This document shows positions 27,762-50,400 of a stretch of 64,000 bases of DNA, in pieces. The stretch lies in the NCBI GenBank assembly GCA_001557505.1, contig LSAX01000009.1:1364001-1428000 (forward strand). The letters run 5' to 3'. The stretch is from Reticulascus tulasneorum. Its lineage: Eukaryota; Ascomycota; Sordariomycetes; Glomerellales; Reticulascaceae. The notes beneath the pieces were generated by a model, which saw nothing but the letters and a program-made list of their open reading frames with translations, made no database searches and was not told the DNA's origin. A program made the translations under genes and the position numbers. How positions within the stretch are numbered: position 1 is the first letter of the stretch; every line of letters starts with the position of its first letter.

Positions 27762-27768
27762 AAAAAAA
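27762..27768 (-). terminator. RNA polymerase III terminator of tRNA-Leu
   Basis: Seven consecutive T on the minus strand, 6 nt after the last tRNA base. This is the usual Pol III stop signal and supports an active tRNA gene. Confidence 0.85.
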
Positions 27769-27774
27769 TAATGG

Positions 27775-27931
27775 TGATGAGAGTGGGACTCGAACCCACG
27801 CCCGTTTCCGGACCAGGAATTAAAGTGTTAAGGATAACCTTAACCTGGCTATTAATTCCATTAGTACACATGTTTACACGTGTTCGGAAATCAGGGTTTC
27901 TTACCGCCATAACCAACTCGGCCATCTCACC
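27775..27931 (-). tRNA. tRNA-Leu(AAG) with two introns, one spliceosome-like
   Basis: Exons 27931-27905, 27848-27838 and 27818-27775 give an 82-nt class II tRNA. Acceptor stem GGTGAGA/TCTCATC (one G-T pair), D arm with A box TGGCCGAGTTGG, anticodon stem CCAGG/CCTGG with loop TTAAGGT (anticodon AAG, read as IAG), variable arm CCG-GAAA-CGG, T arm GTGGG/CCCAC with B box GGTTCGAGTCC, discriminator A. The intron at 27837-27819 (19 nt) sits one base after the anticodon and contains CCTTAA complementary to the loop, as expected for endonuclease-type tRNA introns. The second insertion, 27904-27849 (56 nt), lies between base 26 and 27. It begins GTAAGA, has TACTAAT at 27866-27860 and ends TAG, as a spliceosomal intron does. 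Its removal is required for the cloverleaf. The identity is firm; the splicing route of the 56-nt insert is inference. Confidence 0.9.
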
Positions 27932-28606
27932 CTTTGTTGAGAGGATCGTGCATAAATTCATATATCAGGGGCGTAATAAAAAAACACGCGATCTAACTTA
28001 CACGTGATTGACTTCACGTAATTAATGTCACGAAAGGTCACATAAATCACAAAAACATAACATAGATTATAATCTAATATATTAAGACCTTTAGGGGGAA
28101 ATCCCCTCAGACCTCTAAATGGTATATAACTCATGGATAAGCCTATATTAATTAATTTTAAAGAAATTTTAGATTTGTTTGAATGTGAAAATATTCCGTA
28201 TAATCGATGAACTAGCATATTAGGCTTCTTACTAATAGTTCCATAATACATAGGTATCTTACTATGGTCACAATATAATCGGTTAAGATGGAGAGCTTTT
28301 GCACGATATGGCAACATTATTGGGAATGTGCCATGGTTATAATATTGCCGCCTTGTGAAAAGAAGTAACTTAGACCACCTAGAATGCATACAACAGGCAC
28401 CCCCGACAAATACTGTTTTCACGCCACACAATTCGCATCACAACATCAGAAATGTGGACAGTCTATAATTGATATAGAGAAGAGCATATTATCATTGAAT
28501 CTTAAATGCGGCAAGCCTTTGTGCTCGCTTCGTCTAAACGCCATGCTGAACTGGACAGCAATTGAAGCAGTCACCACCCGTATGGCCGGTTCCACCCTCA
28601 TCCTGC
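27932..28606. other. AT-rich block between tRNA-Leu and Mot1
   Basis: From about 27960 to 28500 the sequence is visibly much richer in A and T than its surroundings. A 157-codon frame on the minus strand (27958-28431) is Lys/Ile/Tyr/Asn-rich, has no recognisable domain and no nearby exon. The block starts almost at the tRNA 5' end, a common landing site for retroelements in fungi, so a decayed, possibly RIP-mutated element is a reasonable guess. No terminal repeats were seen. Confidence 0.5.
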
Positions 28607-31600
28607 TCACTGCATGGTCTTCATGAAGCCATCCAGATCGAAACTCTCTTCATACTGGCGATTGTCCCAAAGCTCGCCCAAGTCTTCCATCCAAGGTTTC
28701 TTGCCAGGTTGCTTTAGAACATCGCCAGTTTCGATATCCACCATGTCCTCCTCTCGTCCCTCGATTGCGTTTTGCGCGGTGTCAGATATAAGACTAGGTC
28801 CGGAATCGCCTAGATTGAATAGATCCAGGATTTGATCCGTGTCCATCGTAGATAAGCCTGCGTTCTGCTGGTTTACGACAGTTGAGGCAACATCAATCTT
28901 GAAACGTTGCAGGCTGAGAATCTTCTCCTCTAAAGTGCCCCTGGTGATGAGTCGATAAACGTTGACCACTTTCTTCTGACCGATGCGATGCGCTCGGTCC
29001 ATGGCCTGGAGATCCTTTTGCGGGTTCCAGTCATGCTCAACGAAGATTACGGTGTCGGCGCCAGTCAAATTTAGACCGAGGCCGCCGACGCTGGTTGTAA
29101 GAAGTAACACATCGTAAGATGGATCGCTGTTGAACTTGTTTACGATGTCCTGTCGCTTGTTGGCTTCAACAGAACCGTCCAATCTCAAAAACGAGACAGA
29201 TGGCAACATCTTCTTGAGGACAGTATTCTGGACCATGTCGAGCATCTCCTTCATCTGACAGAAAACCAAGGCTCGATGGGGCTTGATGGGCTGGTAAAGA
29301 GGATCGGAGTTTTCCGAGCCTTCGACGCCAATGCCGCAGTCGACCAGAAGATCCCTTAGAGCGGTCAACTTTGGCGCGTGAACAGGATCCTCAAGACTCG
29401 TTCCCTTCTTGCTGAGGAAGCGCTGTGTCTCTTCGTATAAGGTATTGCCTGGCTTCATGACGAGAGCGGGGGAGTTGCAGAGCTTTCGCATATATTGAAG
29501 AGCTTGGAAGATGTGGGCCTTGGCCTCCTTGTCTTCGCGGCCAGCATCCTCCTGTAGCTTTTTGCCCTGCTTTCTAGTGAACTCGTCGAACAGTTTCTTT
29601 TGCAGATCACTGAGATCGCAATAGTAGTTTTGCAGGATCTTTGGTGGGAGATCATTGAGGACCTCTTCCTTGAGGCGTCGCAGGAGGAATGGTAAGACTT
29701 GTTTGTGGAGAGCTTCTATGGCAAGCGCACCCGACTCTTGTTCCTTTGATGACGCTTTGCTGAAACGGCTGGCTTGGATTGGTCTTGCGAACCGGTCAAG
29801 GAAGACCTTTTCTGCGCCAAGGAACCCCGGCATCAAGAAGTCGAAGAGCGACCAGAGTTCGAGCACGTTGTTCTGAATCGGCGTGCCAGTCAAGATTAGC
29901 CGATGATTGCTGGCCAATCTCTTGACAGCGATTGTGATCTTGGCCTTGGGGTTCTTGATTAAGTGGCCCTCATCCAGCACAACATAATTCCAGGTGTACT
30001 GTTCAAGCGTTTCGCAATCATTGCGACAGACATCGTAGCTCGTGATCACAATATCCGTCTTGTCAAGCTGATCCTTCAGTGCCTTCCTTTCAGCTGGTGG
30101 GCCAACATAAGCTGTGACGCTCAGGAATGGAGCAAAGGTTTTGATTTCCTGTTGCCAATGGCCAGATAACGTGGGAGGGCATACAATCAGTGATGGAAGT
30201 TTTCGGTAATCTGAAGCACCAGTTTTGGTGAACTCCTCAGCCCGTTGATGGTGGTCGCTCGCAACAATGCAGAGGGTTTGAAGTGTCTTTCCGAGACCCA
30301 TGTCATCGCAAAGAATGCCATGCAGGTGGTACTTGTTGAGGAAGTGTAGCCAGTTGACGCCTTCCTGCTGGTAAGAGCGCAACTCGGCCTTGATGGCGAC
30401 CGGCATCTGGAACGATTCTACCTTCTTTGGGTCGAGAAGTTGAGCGATGAACGTTCGCTCGCGATCCCTGCCCTTCAGCAACTCCTCGGACAGACCCGGA
30501 GGATCGGGAATGCCGGCCTCGAGGGGCACAAGCTTGACTAGAGTAGCGAAGGATGTTGTGGCGATAAGACGGATCTCGTTGTCGGTGTCACTCATTCGAC
30601 CCAGAACGGGGACGATGAGGAAGATGACATAAGGCAGAATCGCGTCTCCCATCACAGCAATCAAGTGATATATAGCCTCAATTGCACCTTGGCGGTAGGT
30701 CGGGTCAACAGGGTTGTTAATGGACGGCAACACCTTCTCCACCAGAGCGGTCATGCCCTCTACCGTAATAACGCTGCAGATAGTGGCCATACATTTGGCC
30801 GCCATATAGCGGAAGACTGAGAGTTCGGAGTGTAGAGCTTTGATAACCAATGGAACCATTTCCATCACGAATGGATGGATAGCCCTGTCGAAGGTTGGAG
30901 TCAATGTTCGGATGAGTGACATGGCGTCAACAATTTCCTGGCCGAATGTGTGCTCTGGGTCTTTAGCTTCAGCTGGTAGGTCGCCAGTGAATGCTTTCAC
31001 GAGCGGATCCTCCATGAACACTCTCAAAGTCGGGACGACAGTGAGCACTACGGCACCGTAGGTCTTCGACAAAATTTCCAGAGCCTCCTTAGCGCCGCGG
31101 CGAGTGATGCGTGCCGCCTTCACCTCCCTTGCCCACTTCGCAGCATCGGCATGATCGACTCGATCTTCTTCCTTCTGCATCGAAAGCACGACATTTGTTT
31201 TGGTGGCATGGACCGGAAATTCCGGTGTTTCCGCAACCTCGACACAGGAGAACTTAACAAGGTTAGAAACGACCTTTTCAGCAGGTCCGCGACGGCCCAA
31301 CTCGGTGAACAATTGGACCAATTTTGCGATGGTACCAGACGAGCGACCTTGCAACTCTTGATTCTCTTCCGTCTTGATGCTGTCCATGATGCCTTTGATG
31401 AGAGGGCTGGGTTTCTTTGGCAAGACTTTGATAGCAACCAATGCGCATGCTGCCGCGGCTTTAACGCGCACATCCCGGGCTTCCTTTGCTGCTTTCGCCT
31501 CCTGAATTGCGGTGGCAGTAACGTCCCGAGCTTCTGCTAGATTGCTGCTGGCCACGAGTCGTTGACCAGGGGGCATGGACTTCTTGAGCTTTTCAAAGTC

Positions 31601-38954: not shown

Positions 38955-41900
38955 ATGTATATCAAGCAAATCATTATCCAGGGCTTCAAGAGGTGCGCAA
39001 CCTGCCACAACGTCTTTTTGTTGTATACTGACCTCGGAATAGTTACAAAGACCAAACGGTCATTGAACCCTTTTCTCCCGGAACGAATGTCATCGTCGGT
39101 CGCAATGGATCCGGCAAGAGTAACTTCTTCGCTGCGATTCGCTTCGTCCTCAGTGATGCCTATACCCAGATGAGTCGCGAAGAGCGCCAGGCGCTTCTGC
39201 ACGAAGGCTCGGGGTCCGCTGTCATGTCCGCATACGTTGAGATCATATTCGACAACAGCGACGAGCGGTTCCCGACCGGCAACAAGGAGGTTATTCTGAG
39301 GCGCACCATTGGCACCAAGAAGGACGAGTACTCGGTTGATCGCAAGGTCGTCACGAAGAATGATGTCGTTAATTTGTTGGAAGCCGCCGGCTTTTCGAGA
39401 TCGAACCCTTACTACATCGTGCCCCAAGGCCGTGTAACCGCCCTGACGAACATGAAGGAATCGGACAGACTAAATCTGTTGAAAGAGGTGGCTGGTACAC
39501 AAGTCTACGAAGCCCGCCGCACCGAGTCCTTGAAAATCATGAACGAGACGAATAACAAGAGAGAAAAGATCGATGAGCTGTTGGAGTACATTAGGGCGCG
39601 TCTGACCGAGTTGGAAGAGGAAAAGGAAGAGTTGAGAGGGTTCCAAGATAAAGACAGAGAACGACGGTGCCTCGAGTACGCGCTTTTCTACCAAGAGCAG
39701 CAGACCATTCAATCGCATCTCGATAGCATAGAACGACGGCGACAAGACGGGCTTGAAAGCACCGACTCCATTCGAGCGGAGCTCCAGACGGCTGAAAAGG
39801 CAATCGCCAAGCTCGACGCAGACATTCACCAGCTCAACCGTGAAATGGATATGCTGAAGATCGACCGCCGTCAGTTGGAGGAAGACAGGCGCGAGACTGC
39901 GAAGGCTAGAGCCAACGTTGAATTGAGAGTGAAAACCTTGGCAGATGGCCAGTCCGAACAAGAGCAAGCTCAATCTCACCATGCCAACGAATTGGAGTCT
40001 GTGAAGAGAGAAATTGCCACCAAGGGACAGGAGCTTGCCAAGATTATCCCGGAGTACATCAAGCGAAAGGCGAAGGAAGCAGAAGTGAAGCAGCAATTGG
40101 ATACTGCTGACGCCTCAAGAACTCGTTTAATCCAGAAACAAAGTCGAAGCTCCCAATTTAGGAACAAGGGAGAGCGCGACAAGTGGCTGAAACAAGAAAT
40201 CGAGGAATTGAATTTATCTCTCAGCACCCAAAAAGCAAATCGAATGGATGCTGACGAGGAGGTCAAGCGGGTTGAGAACTCGATCAAACAGCTGGACAAA
40301 GAGATCACCAATCTGAGAACACAACTTCAAGGCTTTGGAGGCAACAGAAGCGAACTCGCCGAAGAGGCGCGATCAGCTACGGATGCTCTCGACAAGCTGG
40401 ATGAAGACAGGAAGAAGCTGCGCCGAGAAGAAGAGAAGCTTGACACGATCATGCTAGACGCTCGGCGCGAAAGAGAAAGGGCAGAAAACGATCTCAGATC
40501 GTCTATGGACGGCGCCACCGCTCGTGGACTGGCCACCATTCGACGCCTGAAGCGCCAGAAGGATATTCCTGGTGCGTACGGCACTCTGGCAGAGCTGCTC
40601 GAAGTCGGCGATGCCTACAGGTTGGCGGTCGAGCAGCATGCCGGCAACAGTTTGTTTCATTATGTCGTGGACGATGCCAACACTGCAACCGTTCTTGCCA
40701 ACACCTTGTATAAGGAGCATGGTGGCAGACTGACCTTCATGCCACTCAACCAGCTTCGTCCCAGACCAGCTAACCTTCCTCGAGGACAAAACGATGCAAT
40801 CCCACTGCTCAGCAAGATTCGATATGATTCGAAGTATGAAAAGGCATTCCTACAAGTTTTCGGGAAGTCTGTTGTGTGCCCAAATCTATCTGTAGCGGCT
40901 CAATATTCGAGAAGCCACGGAGTTGATGCTATTACACTGGATGGTGACACCACAAACAAGAGGGGTGCAATGACAGGCGGCTTCATTGACCCGAAGAAGT
41001 CTCGGCTTGAAGCAGTGCAAGCAGTCAACAAGTGGCGAGACGAATGTGACCGACTAGACAACCAGATCATCGATATACGGCGGCAAATCGAGCAAAAGGA
41101 TCAGGAAATCACGAAGGCCATGGGCGAACACCAGAAGGTTCAACAGAAACTGCGACATCTGGAAGGTGGCTTCGATCCGTTGAGGAACGAGCTGAGCGCT
41201 AAGAGCGCGCATCTGGAGAACGAGAGGACTCACCTAGACTCAGCTGTTAAGCGTCGCGAGACAGTCGAGAAGAACATGAAAGACTTTGCGGAAACTCTTT
41301 CAGCTCGCGATGCCGAGCTCGCGTCAGACTTTAAGAAGGCCCTGACAGCCCCGGAAGAACGACAGCTGGAAGAGCTCAACACAATCATGCAAGACTTGCA
41401 TAAGCAGTGGAATGAAATCAGCAAAAAGCGAAGAGATCTCGAGGGCCGAAAGCAGATCCTCGAGGCTGATCTGCGGCAGAACCTTGAGCCAAGGTTGGAC
41501 CAGCTTACCAGCCAAGCTTTCGAGAACACTACCTCTGCTGGGTCTTCCGGAAATCTCAAGCAGGCGCAAAGGGAGCTTCAGAAACTGCAGAAGGCCATGA
41601 GTGCTGTCGAGGGCAGAATAAAAGAAACAGAGGAGAGGCTGGAAGACCTGGGTACCAAGATCGACGAGCGGGAAGCAAGGAAGGTACAACAGGAGCAAAC
41701 TCAGAGTGAGATTGCTGCGCGGGAAGCCAGGCAACGCAACTTGATCGAGAAGAGCATGTCCAAGAAAGCCGTGTACACTGCGCAAGCCGCGGATGCTGCG
41801 AAGGCTATCAAAGATCTGGGCGTGCTTCCTGAAGAGGCATTCGACAAGTATGAGCGCATGAACCCGAAAACCGTAAGTCCAAGAACATCGCTCCGTCAAG

Positions 41901-42722
41901 CTCAATGGTTGCTAACTCTTTCTCCGTAGATCGACTCCAAGCTGAAGAAGGTCCGAAGTGAGCTGAAGAAGTATCAACACGTCAACAAGAAGGCCTTTGA
42001 GCAATACAACAGCTTCACGATGCAACAAGACCAACTCCTCAAGCGCCGGGAGGAGCTAGACGCGTCGCAGGGGTCGATCGAGGAGCTCGTTGCGCATCTC
42101 GATCAGAGAAAGGACGAGGCAATCGAGCGAACATTCAAGCAAGTCTCCAAGGAATTCGCCACCATCTTCGAGAAGCTCGTCCCTGCGGGCCACGGCCGGC
42201 TGGTCATCCAGCGCAAGACCGATCGGCGCGTGGATCCCGACGAGTCAGACGAGGAGCAACGGGGCAGCGTAGAGAACTACACCGGTGTCGGCATCAGCGT
42301 CTCTTTCAACTCCAAAACGCTGGATGAGCAGCAACGAATCCAACAGCTTAGCGGTGGTCAGAAGAGTGAGTCCCCAAGAAGACCGCCTTGGTCACAGCCA
42401 AAGTTGCTAACATGTCCCAGGTTTGTGCGCCCTCTGCCTAATCTTCGCCCTCCAGCAGACGGAAAGCAGCCCGATGGTCATCTTCGATGAAGTCGACGCC
42501 AACCTGGACGCGCAGTACCGTACGGCCGTCGCCGGCCTTCTCGAGTCCATATCCAAGGACGCGGGCACCCAGTTCATCTGCACCACCTTCCGACCCGAAA
42601 TCGTGCACATCGCCGACAAATGCTACGGAGTGACGTTCCACAACAAGACCAGCTCCATCGACTGCGTCCCGACAGAGGAGGCCCTGAGCTTCGTCGATGG
42701 CCAGGCGACAGGAAAGCAATGA
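38955..42722 (+). CDS. SMC3: Cohesin subunit SMC3
   Basis: Exons 38955-38992, 39043-41872, 41930-42365 and 42421-42722 give 1201 aa, the normal SMC3 length. The first exon encodes [12 protein letters not shown] and the splice yields the invariant [13 protein letters not shown]. Head: Walker [10 protein letters not shown] near residue 32, then the SMC3 motif [15 protein letters not shown]. The two Lys residues that are acetylated by Eco1 in other species lie in the conserved segment near residue 105 ([13 protein letters not shown]). Long coiled coils flank the hinge at about 515-675. The C-terminal head has LSGGQKSL (an intron falls right after GQK) and Walker [15 protein letters not shown]3 pairs with SMC1 and Scc1 to hold sister chromatids together. 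All introns are short GT-AG. Confidence 0.97.
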
Positions 42723-47404: not shown

Positions 47405-50400
47405 ATGGCACCGTTTAAAATAGCCAGCCTGATTGGTCAGGGCAACAAGCACTATCCTACCCCCGTTGCCACTGAGGTTGAGCCTGAAGACGAGCACCAA
47501 ACCGATCTGGAGACTGGCAATTTCTTGCATGAGCGCCAGAGAAACAACCGGATCGGAGACAAGAACGATGGTGACAATCCTTACCTAGATGAGTATCGAG
47601 CGTATGTACCTTCTCAGCCACATTGATCAAGTGTGATAGACAGTACTAATACTTCATTTGATAGGTTAACCCGCTACATCGATACTTATCGAGATCCGAA
47701 TGCAGATGTCGTGGAGGAGGAGGAAGTGGAGATAAGCTCTAGCAAGGCGCCTTGGTGGGCGTTCTGGAAAGGTCGCAAAGGTGGCAAAGCCGCTTCCTTG
47801 AGCGACTTTGTCACCCCCACCGACTGGGTGAACACAGATATCCGAACTGGCCTCGACTCCTTGGAGGTTGAGCGCCGACGGAGGCACTGTGGGTGGAACG
47901 AACTTACCACCGAGAAGGAAAATATGTTTGCCAAATTCATCGGCTTCTTCCGCGGTCCAATCCTTTACGGTATATACTTCTTCCATGCTTTGAGTTACTT
48001 AAGTCATTGGATGTCTTCTAATAAAGACCAATAGTCATGGAGGCCGCTGCAATCCTTGCATTTGCGCTTCAGGACTGGCTTGATGCGGGTAAGTTTCGTC
48101 TTGAGATCCAGTCGAGCTTGAATCTTGTTGCTAATCCTGCTTCGCAGCTCTTATCGTGGCCATTCTGTTGCTTAATGCTGCTGTTGGCTGGTATCAAGAG
48201 AAGCAAGCTGCCGATGTCGTTGCTAGCTTGAAAGGAGATATTGCAATGAAAGCTCGAGTAATTCGCAATAGTATTGAACAGGACATCAAGGCTCGCGAAC
48301 TGGTACCAGGCGATATCGTAAGTTTCCCCCTTCAAACTGTGATGTCAAAATCACAGAACGAAACATTCATTGACTAACTTCTTCGCACTAGATCGTCGTC
48401 GAAGAAGGCCATGTAGTTCCCGGAGATGCAAGGCTGATCTGTGACTACGATAATCCGCAGGGGCTCTCTGAGTACCGGGCGGAGCTCGAAGCACAGGACG
48501 TCACATCTCCAACCCGCGAGAAATTCGATGAAGACGATGACGACGAAGGCACACCTCACATCGGCCACTCCATTGTGGCAGTTGATCAAAGCGCTATGAC
48601 CGGAGAGTCGCTCGCCGTTGACAAGTTCATGACAGATACCGTCTACTACACCACCGGATGCAAGCGCGGAAAGGCCATCTGCGTTGTCACTTCTGCCGCG
48701 CCGGCTTCCTTCGTTGGAAAGACTGCCAGTCTCGTCCAAGGAGCTCAAGACCAAGGGCATTTCAAGGCCATTATGAACTCCATTGGTACGACACTGCTCG
48801 TTTTAGTCGTATTCTTCCTGCTCGCCGCCTGGATTGGTGGTTTCTACCGAAATCTGGAGGTTGCCGAACCAAAGGAGAGCTCCGTCAACTTGCTCCATTA
48901 CGCGCTCATTCTACTTGTTATTGGCGTGCCTATCGGATTACCGTGCGTCACCACAACCACCTTGGCTGTCGGCGCCGCATACTTGGCCAAAGAGAAGGCT
49001 ATTGTGCAGAAGCTCACAGCTATCGAATCCCTTGCTGGTGTAGATATATTGTGCTCGGACAAAACTGGTACCCTGACGGCGAATCAATTGAGTGTTCGAG
49101 AGCCATTCGTCATGGAAGGTGTCGATATCAACTGGATGATGGCCGTTGCAGCCTTGGCATCCTCGCATAACATCAAGGCGCTGGATCCCATCGACAAGAT
49201 CACCATCTTGACTCTCAAACGATACCCCAAGGCCAAGGAGCTCCTCGCCGATGGCTGGAAGACCGAGAAGTTCATGCCGTTCGATCCCGTCTCCAAGAGA
49301 ATCACCGCGACCGTCACCCACGGAGGTGTCAGATACACATGCGCAAAGGGTGCGCCCAAGGCCGTTCTTGCTCTCACGGACTGCACTGAGGAGCAATCAA
49401 CACTCTTCAAGGAGAAGGCAACCGAATTCGCACGCCGCGGCTTCCGATCTCTTGCCGTTGCCGTCAGGGAGGAGGACGGTCCCTGGGAGATGCTGGGAAT
49501 GCTCTCCCTCTTCGACCCTCCCCGAAGCGACACTGCGCAGACAATCGCCGAAGCCCAGAACCTCGGTCTGTCCGTCAAGATGCTGACTGGTGATGCCCAC
49601 GCTATTGCTGTCGAAACCTGCCGCATGCTCCAGCTTGGAACCAAGGTGTACAACTCGGACAAGCTGCTGCACAGCGACATGGCCGGCACAGCCGTCCATG
49701 ACCTGTGCGAGAGGGCAGACGGCTTCGCAGAGGTGTTTCCCGAGCACAAATACCAGGTCGTCGAAATGCTCCAACAGCGTGGCCATCTGACAGCCATGAC
49801 AGGAGACGGTGTAAACGACGCTCCATCCCTGAAGAAGAGTGATTGCGGTATCGCTGTCGAGGGTGCCACTGAAGCCGCCCAGGCCGCAGCGGATATCGTA
49901 TTCTTAGCGCCAGGTCTCAGTACGATCGTTACCGCCATCAAGCTCTCTCGCCAGATCTTCCAGCGCATGAAGGCGTACATCCAGTACCGTATCGCCCTCT
50001 GCCTGCATCTCGAGATCTACCTCGTCACCTCTATGATCATTATCAATGAAACGCTGCGTGTCGACCTCATCGTCTTCCTTGCACTCTTTGCCGATCTCGC
50101 CACAATCGCCGTCGCAGTAAGTACCTCCTCACACCCTCCTTTACCTTAAACCCAAGTTTCTAACATTCTCAGTACGACAATGCCCATTTCGAGAAGCGGC
50201 CGGTAGAATGGCAGCTCCCTAAGATCTGGATCATTAGCATCGTGCTCGGCACTCTTCTCGCCTTGGCGACCTGGATCCTCCGTGGCACGATGTGGCTTCG
50301 TGAAGGTGGCATCATCCAGCAGTACGGATCCATCCAGGAGATTCTCTTCCTCGAAATCTCCCTTACGCAGAACTGGCTTATCTTTGTCACCCGCGGCTTC

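Follow-up and report, generated by a model that had tools for sequence, protein, structure and literature searches.

The tRNA-Leu(AAG) gene in the window, the whole 64-kb stretch of DNA analysed here (on contig C35 of the 43-Mb, 35-contig host genome), is interrupted between positions 26 and 27 by a 56-nt insert that would probably be removed by the spliceosome; by extension, the same would hold for another 19 inserts, spread over 17 further tRNA genes. "Isolated oddity" is the wrong description of this insert, which is a member of a genome-wide class: in a partial census, 20 inserts were found in 18 of the 47 tRNA genes examined. The initial annotation had proposed a spliceosome-type intron for the window gene, and this reading fits every sequence test made here and is strengthened by the additional genes.

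Structure of the interrupted tRNA-Leu(AAG) gene

The gene and its parts are as follows.

27775..27931, minus strand: tRNA-Leu(AAG) gene, nucleotides 1-73 plus two insertions (from sequence, stem pairing and ARAGORN)
27905..27931, minus strand: 5' exon, positions 1-26 (ARAGORN on the insert-free sequence)
27849..27904, minus strand: mRNA-type insert, 56 nt, at 26/27 (cloverleaf search, ARAGORN)
27899..27904, minus strand: GTAAGA, 5' splice-site-like
27860..27866, minus strand: TACTAAT, branch-site-like, with the branch A predicted at 27861
27849..27851, minus strand: TAG, 3' splice-site-like
27838..27848, minus strand: CCAGGTTAAGG, the segment separating the 56-nt insert from the 37/38 intron
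27819..27837, minus strand: ordinary tRNA intron, 19 nt, at 37/38, with partial complementarity to the anticodon loop
27775..27818, minus strand: 3' exon
27913..27924, minus strand: A box TGGCCGAGTTGG, uninterrupted
27786..27796, minus strand: B box GGTTCGAGTCC, uninterrupted
27762..27768, minus strand: T7 run, likely Pol III terminator

The insert had been placed between bases 26 and 27 from the letters alone, and the position is confirmed to the base, with ARAGORN calling tRNA-Leu(aag) with a 19-nt intron on the insert-free sequence and tRNA-Val(aac) with a 67-nt intron when the insert is left in. In a cloverleaf search blind to the splice signals, two cuts that differ by one base shared the top score, and one of them yields GTAAGA...TAG. 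The insert lies at 26/27 and not at 37/38, and the normal 19-nt intron from which it had been distinguished is indeed present separately. The proposed start, branch motif and end of the insert all stand, and only the spacing needs correction, since 11 nt rather than 12 follow TACTAAT. The rest of the tRNA is intact, as had been claimed, with 7/7 pairs in the acceptor stem and 5/5 in the T-stem, and after intron removal the gene is predicted to have the cloverleaf, A box, B box and terminator of a functional nuclear tRNA gene. Neither a default ARAGORN run nor Rfam at gathering scores reported a tRNA in the 64-kb window.

A MOT1-like gene lies upstream on the same strand, its stop codon at 28607, approximately 675 bp away. 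Between the two genes, the stretch 28040-28300 is AT-rich (28.4% GC vs 51.9% in the window) and has no match among the other loci examined. A mitochondrial origin of the flank (27932-28606) was rejected, with no match at E 1e-3 to the loci compared, which include only a portion of the mitochondrial contigs. The proteins of the window have their nearest matches in Sordariomycetes. Among the matches listed for a PLC-like protein of the window, the best are 54-69% identical and come from Colletotrichum, Magnaporthiopsis and Xylaria, and the SMC3 of the window has a Colletotrichum match (70%); Colletotrichum and Magnaporthiopsis are Sordariomycetes.

Census of interrupted tRNA genes

On the whole genome, the Rfam tRNA model gave 63 scored matches, mostly on small mitochondrial-looking contigs, while the majority of nuclear tRNAs escaped it; the search was therefore switched to B-box plus T-run patterns. 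The partial census (a B-box search together with B-box plus T5 patterns) yielded 47 candidates read as nuclear tRNA genes. In the six B-box plus T5 searches, the ratios of reversed-pattern to pattern matches were 12/188, 11/105, 13/61, 16/12, 7/48 and 2/32; from one search 100 of the 105 matches were examined, plus those of the remainder with CCC.

Two of the 47, L036 and L096, were kept as doubtful. A segment of approximately 51 nt in L036 (GTAAGT...CTGAC...AAAC) was left out of the insert count, and L096 (C12:1518932) is tRNA-like with a C-rich insert of approximately 111 nt, at or near 37/38, that contains repeated TCGGTCAGGC-type units. The 47 omit at least seven pattern hits (C32:527645, C32:574893, C2:3168109, C32:894794, C4:758644, C32:2933748 and C35:852339) and L123 (C34:273545-273601), a bacterial-like tRNA-Asn remnant that scored 28.4 bits, below the Rfam cut-off. 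Loci forming no cloverleaf (L044, L071, L088, L104) and the B-box loci of one search that form no tRNA were dropped, as was a repeated element with a B-box-like end and no Rfam match (L101, C15:389100-389540; L107, C17:716190-716630), whose two similar, dispersed stretches contain A-box-like and B-box-like parts and a T-run and are possibly a tRNA-derived repeat. For a fungus with a 43-Mb genome the nuclear tRNA genes found are few; most anticodons have a single gene, and the majority of genes have a 37/38 intron.

The inserts, with positions numbered by hand from the sequences, are located as follows.

Leu(AAG), window: 26/27
Leu(AAG), contig C6 (L002): 15/16, in the D-loop, GTAAGT...TCTAAT...AAG
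Pro(CGG): three inserts, after 20, at 34/35 and at 50/51
Arg(ACG): 19/20
Lys(CTT), two genes: 18/19 in each
Ile(AAT), two genes: 17/18 in one, 26/27 in the other
Leu(TAG): D-loop
Leu(CAG) (L110, C17:3563793-3563846): 23/24, ATAAGT...CTAAC...CAC
Leu(CAA): 18/19
Thr(TGT): 29/30
Ser(AGA): 35/36
Arg(TCT): 34/35
Gln(CTG): 33/34
Asp(GTC): 50/51
Ile(TAT): 34/35, tentative
Lys(TTT): variable loop

The sites range from the D-loop to the T-stem, some falling within the anticodon and none placed at 37/38, and most of the 18 genes contain both an insert and a 37/38 intron. An intact family of Leu(AAG) genes elsewhere would have spoken against the initial annotation; none was found, and the one further Leu(AAG) gene detected has an insert of its own at a different position, which also removes the idea of an isolated insert. 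In the Leu(AAG) pair and again in the Ile(AAT) pair the two genes are interrupted at different sites, which points to repeated gains.

Splice signals and insert length

A 5' splice site, a branch site and a 3' end are present in all 20 inserts, 19 of which are GT-AG and one AT-AC. All pass the 5' splice site test (GTRNGN or the AT-AC variant), and all have a fungal-type branch site 9-14 nt before the insert end (the criterion was YTRAY type, 7-22 nt from the 3' end), although only the weaker TTAAY form occurs in Arg(TCT), Asp(GTC)_a, Lys(TTT) and LeuCAA. The chance of finding all three signals in a random 51-60-nt interval of the window is 4e-5, rising to 1e-4 if any of 8 shifts is allowed. 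Spliceosomal introns are known to include a rare variant that combines AT-AC ends with U2-type signals, and we know of no endonuclease feature to which such ends would correspond.

Among structurally equivalent cuts, the one with signals was taken. As this choice was not blind to the signals, the cuts were also scored on the cloverleaf only, in a blind test covering 17 genes (Pro(CGG), with its three inserts, was left out). The chosen cut was among the best in 12 of the 17 and within 1.0 of the best in 15. The exceptions were LeuCAA, where the chosen cut scored 25.0 and the best 26.8, and Ile(TAT), where it was absent from the top 40 and which also has a 31-39 mismatch. For the AT-AC insert of Leu(CAG), the blind best cut was unique.

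Four mRNA introns of the window served for comparison, the last of them in an ATPase gene which we take to be plasma-membrane H+-ATPase-like.

38993..39042, plus strand: SMC3 mRNA intron 1, 50 nt, GTGCGC
41873..41929, plus strand: SMC3 mRNA intron 2, 57 nt, GTAAGT
42366..42420, plus strand: SMC3 mRNA intron 3, 55 nt, GTGAGT
50117..50172, plus strand: intron of the ATPase gene, 56 nt, GTAAGT

All four begin with GTRNGN, have a CTGAC or CTAAC branch and end in YAG, which bears out the likeness to the window's mRNA introns noted at the outset. The inserts measure 51-60 nt (mean 55.25, n=20) and in this resemble the mRNA introns (50-57 nt, with only four compared); most 37/38 introns are shorter (9-31 nt in 30 of the 33 parsed). 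Stable hairpin formation by the inserts was considered and rejected as too weak (z of -1.94, -1.77 and -1.51 for three inserts). By 5' site, branch site, length and signal tests, the inserts are candidate U2-type spliceosomal introns, and the consistency of the signals across all 20 speaks against a recent random insertion in the window gene.

Pol III signals

Of the 18 interrupted genes, 16 have a readable GG-ended A box, because inserts at 18/19 start with the G needed to complete it; the GG is lost in Leu(AAG) on C6 and in Ile(AAT)_a. An internal run of at least five T occurs in one of the 18, LeuCAA, whose insert holds a T5 run that could stop Pol III. As the census required a T5 run, the terminators are no independent evidence. 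The U6 gene of the same genome was considered as a further candidate for an intron and is uninterrupted on inspection.

Predicted mature tRNAs and uninterrupted copies

On the insert-free sequences, ARAGORN reported a tRNA in 17/17 and the expected anticodon in 15/17, the misreads being Ile(AAT)_a, called His(atg), and Leu(CAG), given a four-base anticodon. When the same 17 genes were left unspliced, it found nothing in five, the wrong isotype in eight and the right one in four; Lys(TTT) is called Lys with and without its insert. Acceptor stems of the interrupted genes are without mismatch, as are most T-stems. The mature sequences of the two Lys(CTT) genes are identical (73/73) and their inserts match in 47 of 62 aligned columns, at the same site and with GTAAG, CTAAC and CAG all retained. 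Under the genetic code, the reading of lysine codons depends on Lys(CTT) or Lys(TTT), from which we infer that these inserts are removed.

A genome search with the 18 spliced sequences gave 34 matches, 32 of them exons of the same 18 genes. The remaining two are an uninterrupted tRNA-Asp (C15:804677-804748, 81%), known only as a search match, and a decayed inverted copy of the nearby interrupted tRNA-Asp gene, insert included (L127, C15:800717-800780), matched here at C15:800717-800736. Uninterrupted copies thus exist for Asp(GTC), which together with the decayed copy suggests that the interrupted Asp member may be dispensable. For 14 other isoacceptors (Leu AAG, TAG, CAG, CAA; Lys CTT, TTT; Ile AAT, TAT; Pro CGG; Arg ACG, TCT; Thr TGT; Ser AGA; Gln CTG) this search and the census, in which only the best candidates were scored, found no uninterrupted copy; the search did detect an Asp copy of 81% identity, so closer copies would be detectable. 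Approximate yeast queries for Phe, His, initiator Met, Asn and Tyr had no match in the genome, which indicates that some tRNA genes escape the search methods used; gaps in the assembly are a further possibility.

Proposed pathway and alternative explanations

The A and B boxes would direct Pol III transcription of the interrupted gene, the U1 and U2 snRNPs would bind the 5' site and the branch site, and the spliceosome would ligate positions 26 and 27. The tRNA splicing endonuclease would then cut out the ordinary 37/38 intron, and the mature tRNAs would be used by the cell. This order is suggested by Pro(CGG), Arg(TCT) and Gln(CTG), where an insert lies in or directly before the anticodon, such that the loop required by the endonuclease would form only after the first step. 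As far as sequence can tell, it is likely that the cell relies on its mRNA splicing machine to make these tRNAs. Much of the tRNA set would then probably pass through the spliceosome and subsequently the endonuclease, among it every lysine tRNA found and every leucine isoacceptor but TAA, making translation directly spliceosome-dependent. Introns, an AT-AC one included, would have entered the tRNA genes of this one lineage on a dozen or more separate occasions.

The spliceosome could also act on Pol II transcripts that span the tRNA genes, from which RNase P and RNase Z would subsequently release the tRNA. The spliceosome is normally coupled to Pol II, and read-through from the MOT1-like gene into the window gene is possible given their orientation and spacing. 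We nevertheless regard this route as unlikely, since the window gene and most other interrupted genes retain an A box, a B box and a T-run, and since U6 of S. pombe (PMC10484740) is an example of splicing in a Pol III transcript.

Removal by a relaxed, archaeal-like tRNA splicing endonuclease that cuts at bulge-helix-bulge junctions, as reported for nucleomorphs and the red alga Cyanidioschyzon merolae, appears very unlikely. Endonuclease-type introns at non-canonical positions do exist in some eukaryotes (PMC4090602), and a second site accepted by the endonuclease had been offered as the alternative for the window insert, which taken alone can form 3/4 central-helix pairs, the A-I pair included; one Pro(CGG) insert can form 4/4. 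The pairing in the window insert does not by itself decide between the two machines, and across the insert set this alternative is not supported. The A-I pair is possible in 6/19 inserts vs 22/33 parsed 37/38 introns, and the mean number of pairs out of four is 1.74 in the former vs 2.36 in the latter (random, approximately 1.5), where the L036, L096 and Lys(TTT) parses among the 33 are doubtful and the Lys(TTT) insert is outside the 19. Pairing between anticodon and intron is therefore enriched in the 37/38 introns and not in the inserts. An endonuclease would also leave the GT-AG and AT-AC ends, the branch sites and the fixed length of 51-60 nt unexplained.

That the interrupted genes are dead copies, with uninterrupted genes missed by the searches or the assembly in use instead, draws on the incomplete census, the five unmatched tRNAs and the uninterrupted Asp(GTC) copies, but is hardly credible against the mismatch-free acceptor stems and mostly mismatch-free T-stems, the Lys(CTT) pair with identical exons and diverged inserts, and the loss it would entail of all leucine anticodons except TAA and of both lysine anticodons. 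A mobile introner is not supported, with no similar insert copy in the genome at E<=1 beyond the 18 genes and the decayed inverted Asp copy, and a group I or II intron was rejected, with no Rfam match at gathering score in the window and 56 nt being too short for ribozyme introns, which are far longer.

Relation to known systems

In the textbook division, nuclear tRNAs are the province of a protein endonuclease and Pol II transcripts that of the spliceosome, U6 being a rare exception made by Pol III; to our knowledge, tRNA genes have long been regarded as closed to spliceosomal introns. The initial annotation knew of no fungal case, and the open-licence literature searched likewise yielded no paper that describes nuclear tRNA genes with spliceosomal introns. 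If the reading as spliceosomal introns is true, the spliceosome would routinely act on short Pol III transcripts, tRNA supply would come under splicing control, and the failure of standard tRNA finders to detect such genes or to name them correctly would be explained. The genome would also offer some 20 natural test cases of intron gain in structured RNA genes.

Like the ordinary 37/38 introns, the inserts interrupt tRNA genes and have to be removed, but they differ in position and length, in their GT-AG or AT-AC ends and branch site, and in the A-I pair, which is not enriched. With introners and introner-like elements they share the occurrence of many introns of one style in a genome; introners, however, are near-identical copies, whereas nothing similar to the present inserts was found elsewhere at E<=1, apart from the one decayed Asp copy. 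Between one and three introns, in the D-arm, anticodon arm and T-arm, are described for nuclear-type tRNA genes in PMC4090602 and the abstract of PMC9602550, the former ascribing the non-canonical introns of nucleomorphs and Cyanidioschyzon merolae to the endonuclease. As portrayed there, those introns are endonuclease substrates and include ones of 3-24 nt in Guillardia theta, whereas the present inserts measure 51-60 nt and have spliceosomal signals. In S. pombe, splicing removes an mRNA-type intron from U6, which Pol III transcribes (PMC10484740), and the present genes would share with it a short spliceosomal intron within a non-coding RNA made by Pol III. That case concerns one gene, with the intron near the U6 catalytic site and explained by reverse splicing, whereas in the present genome 18 tRNA genes are interrupted at many sites and its own U6 is uninterrupted.
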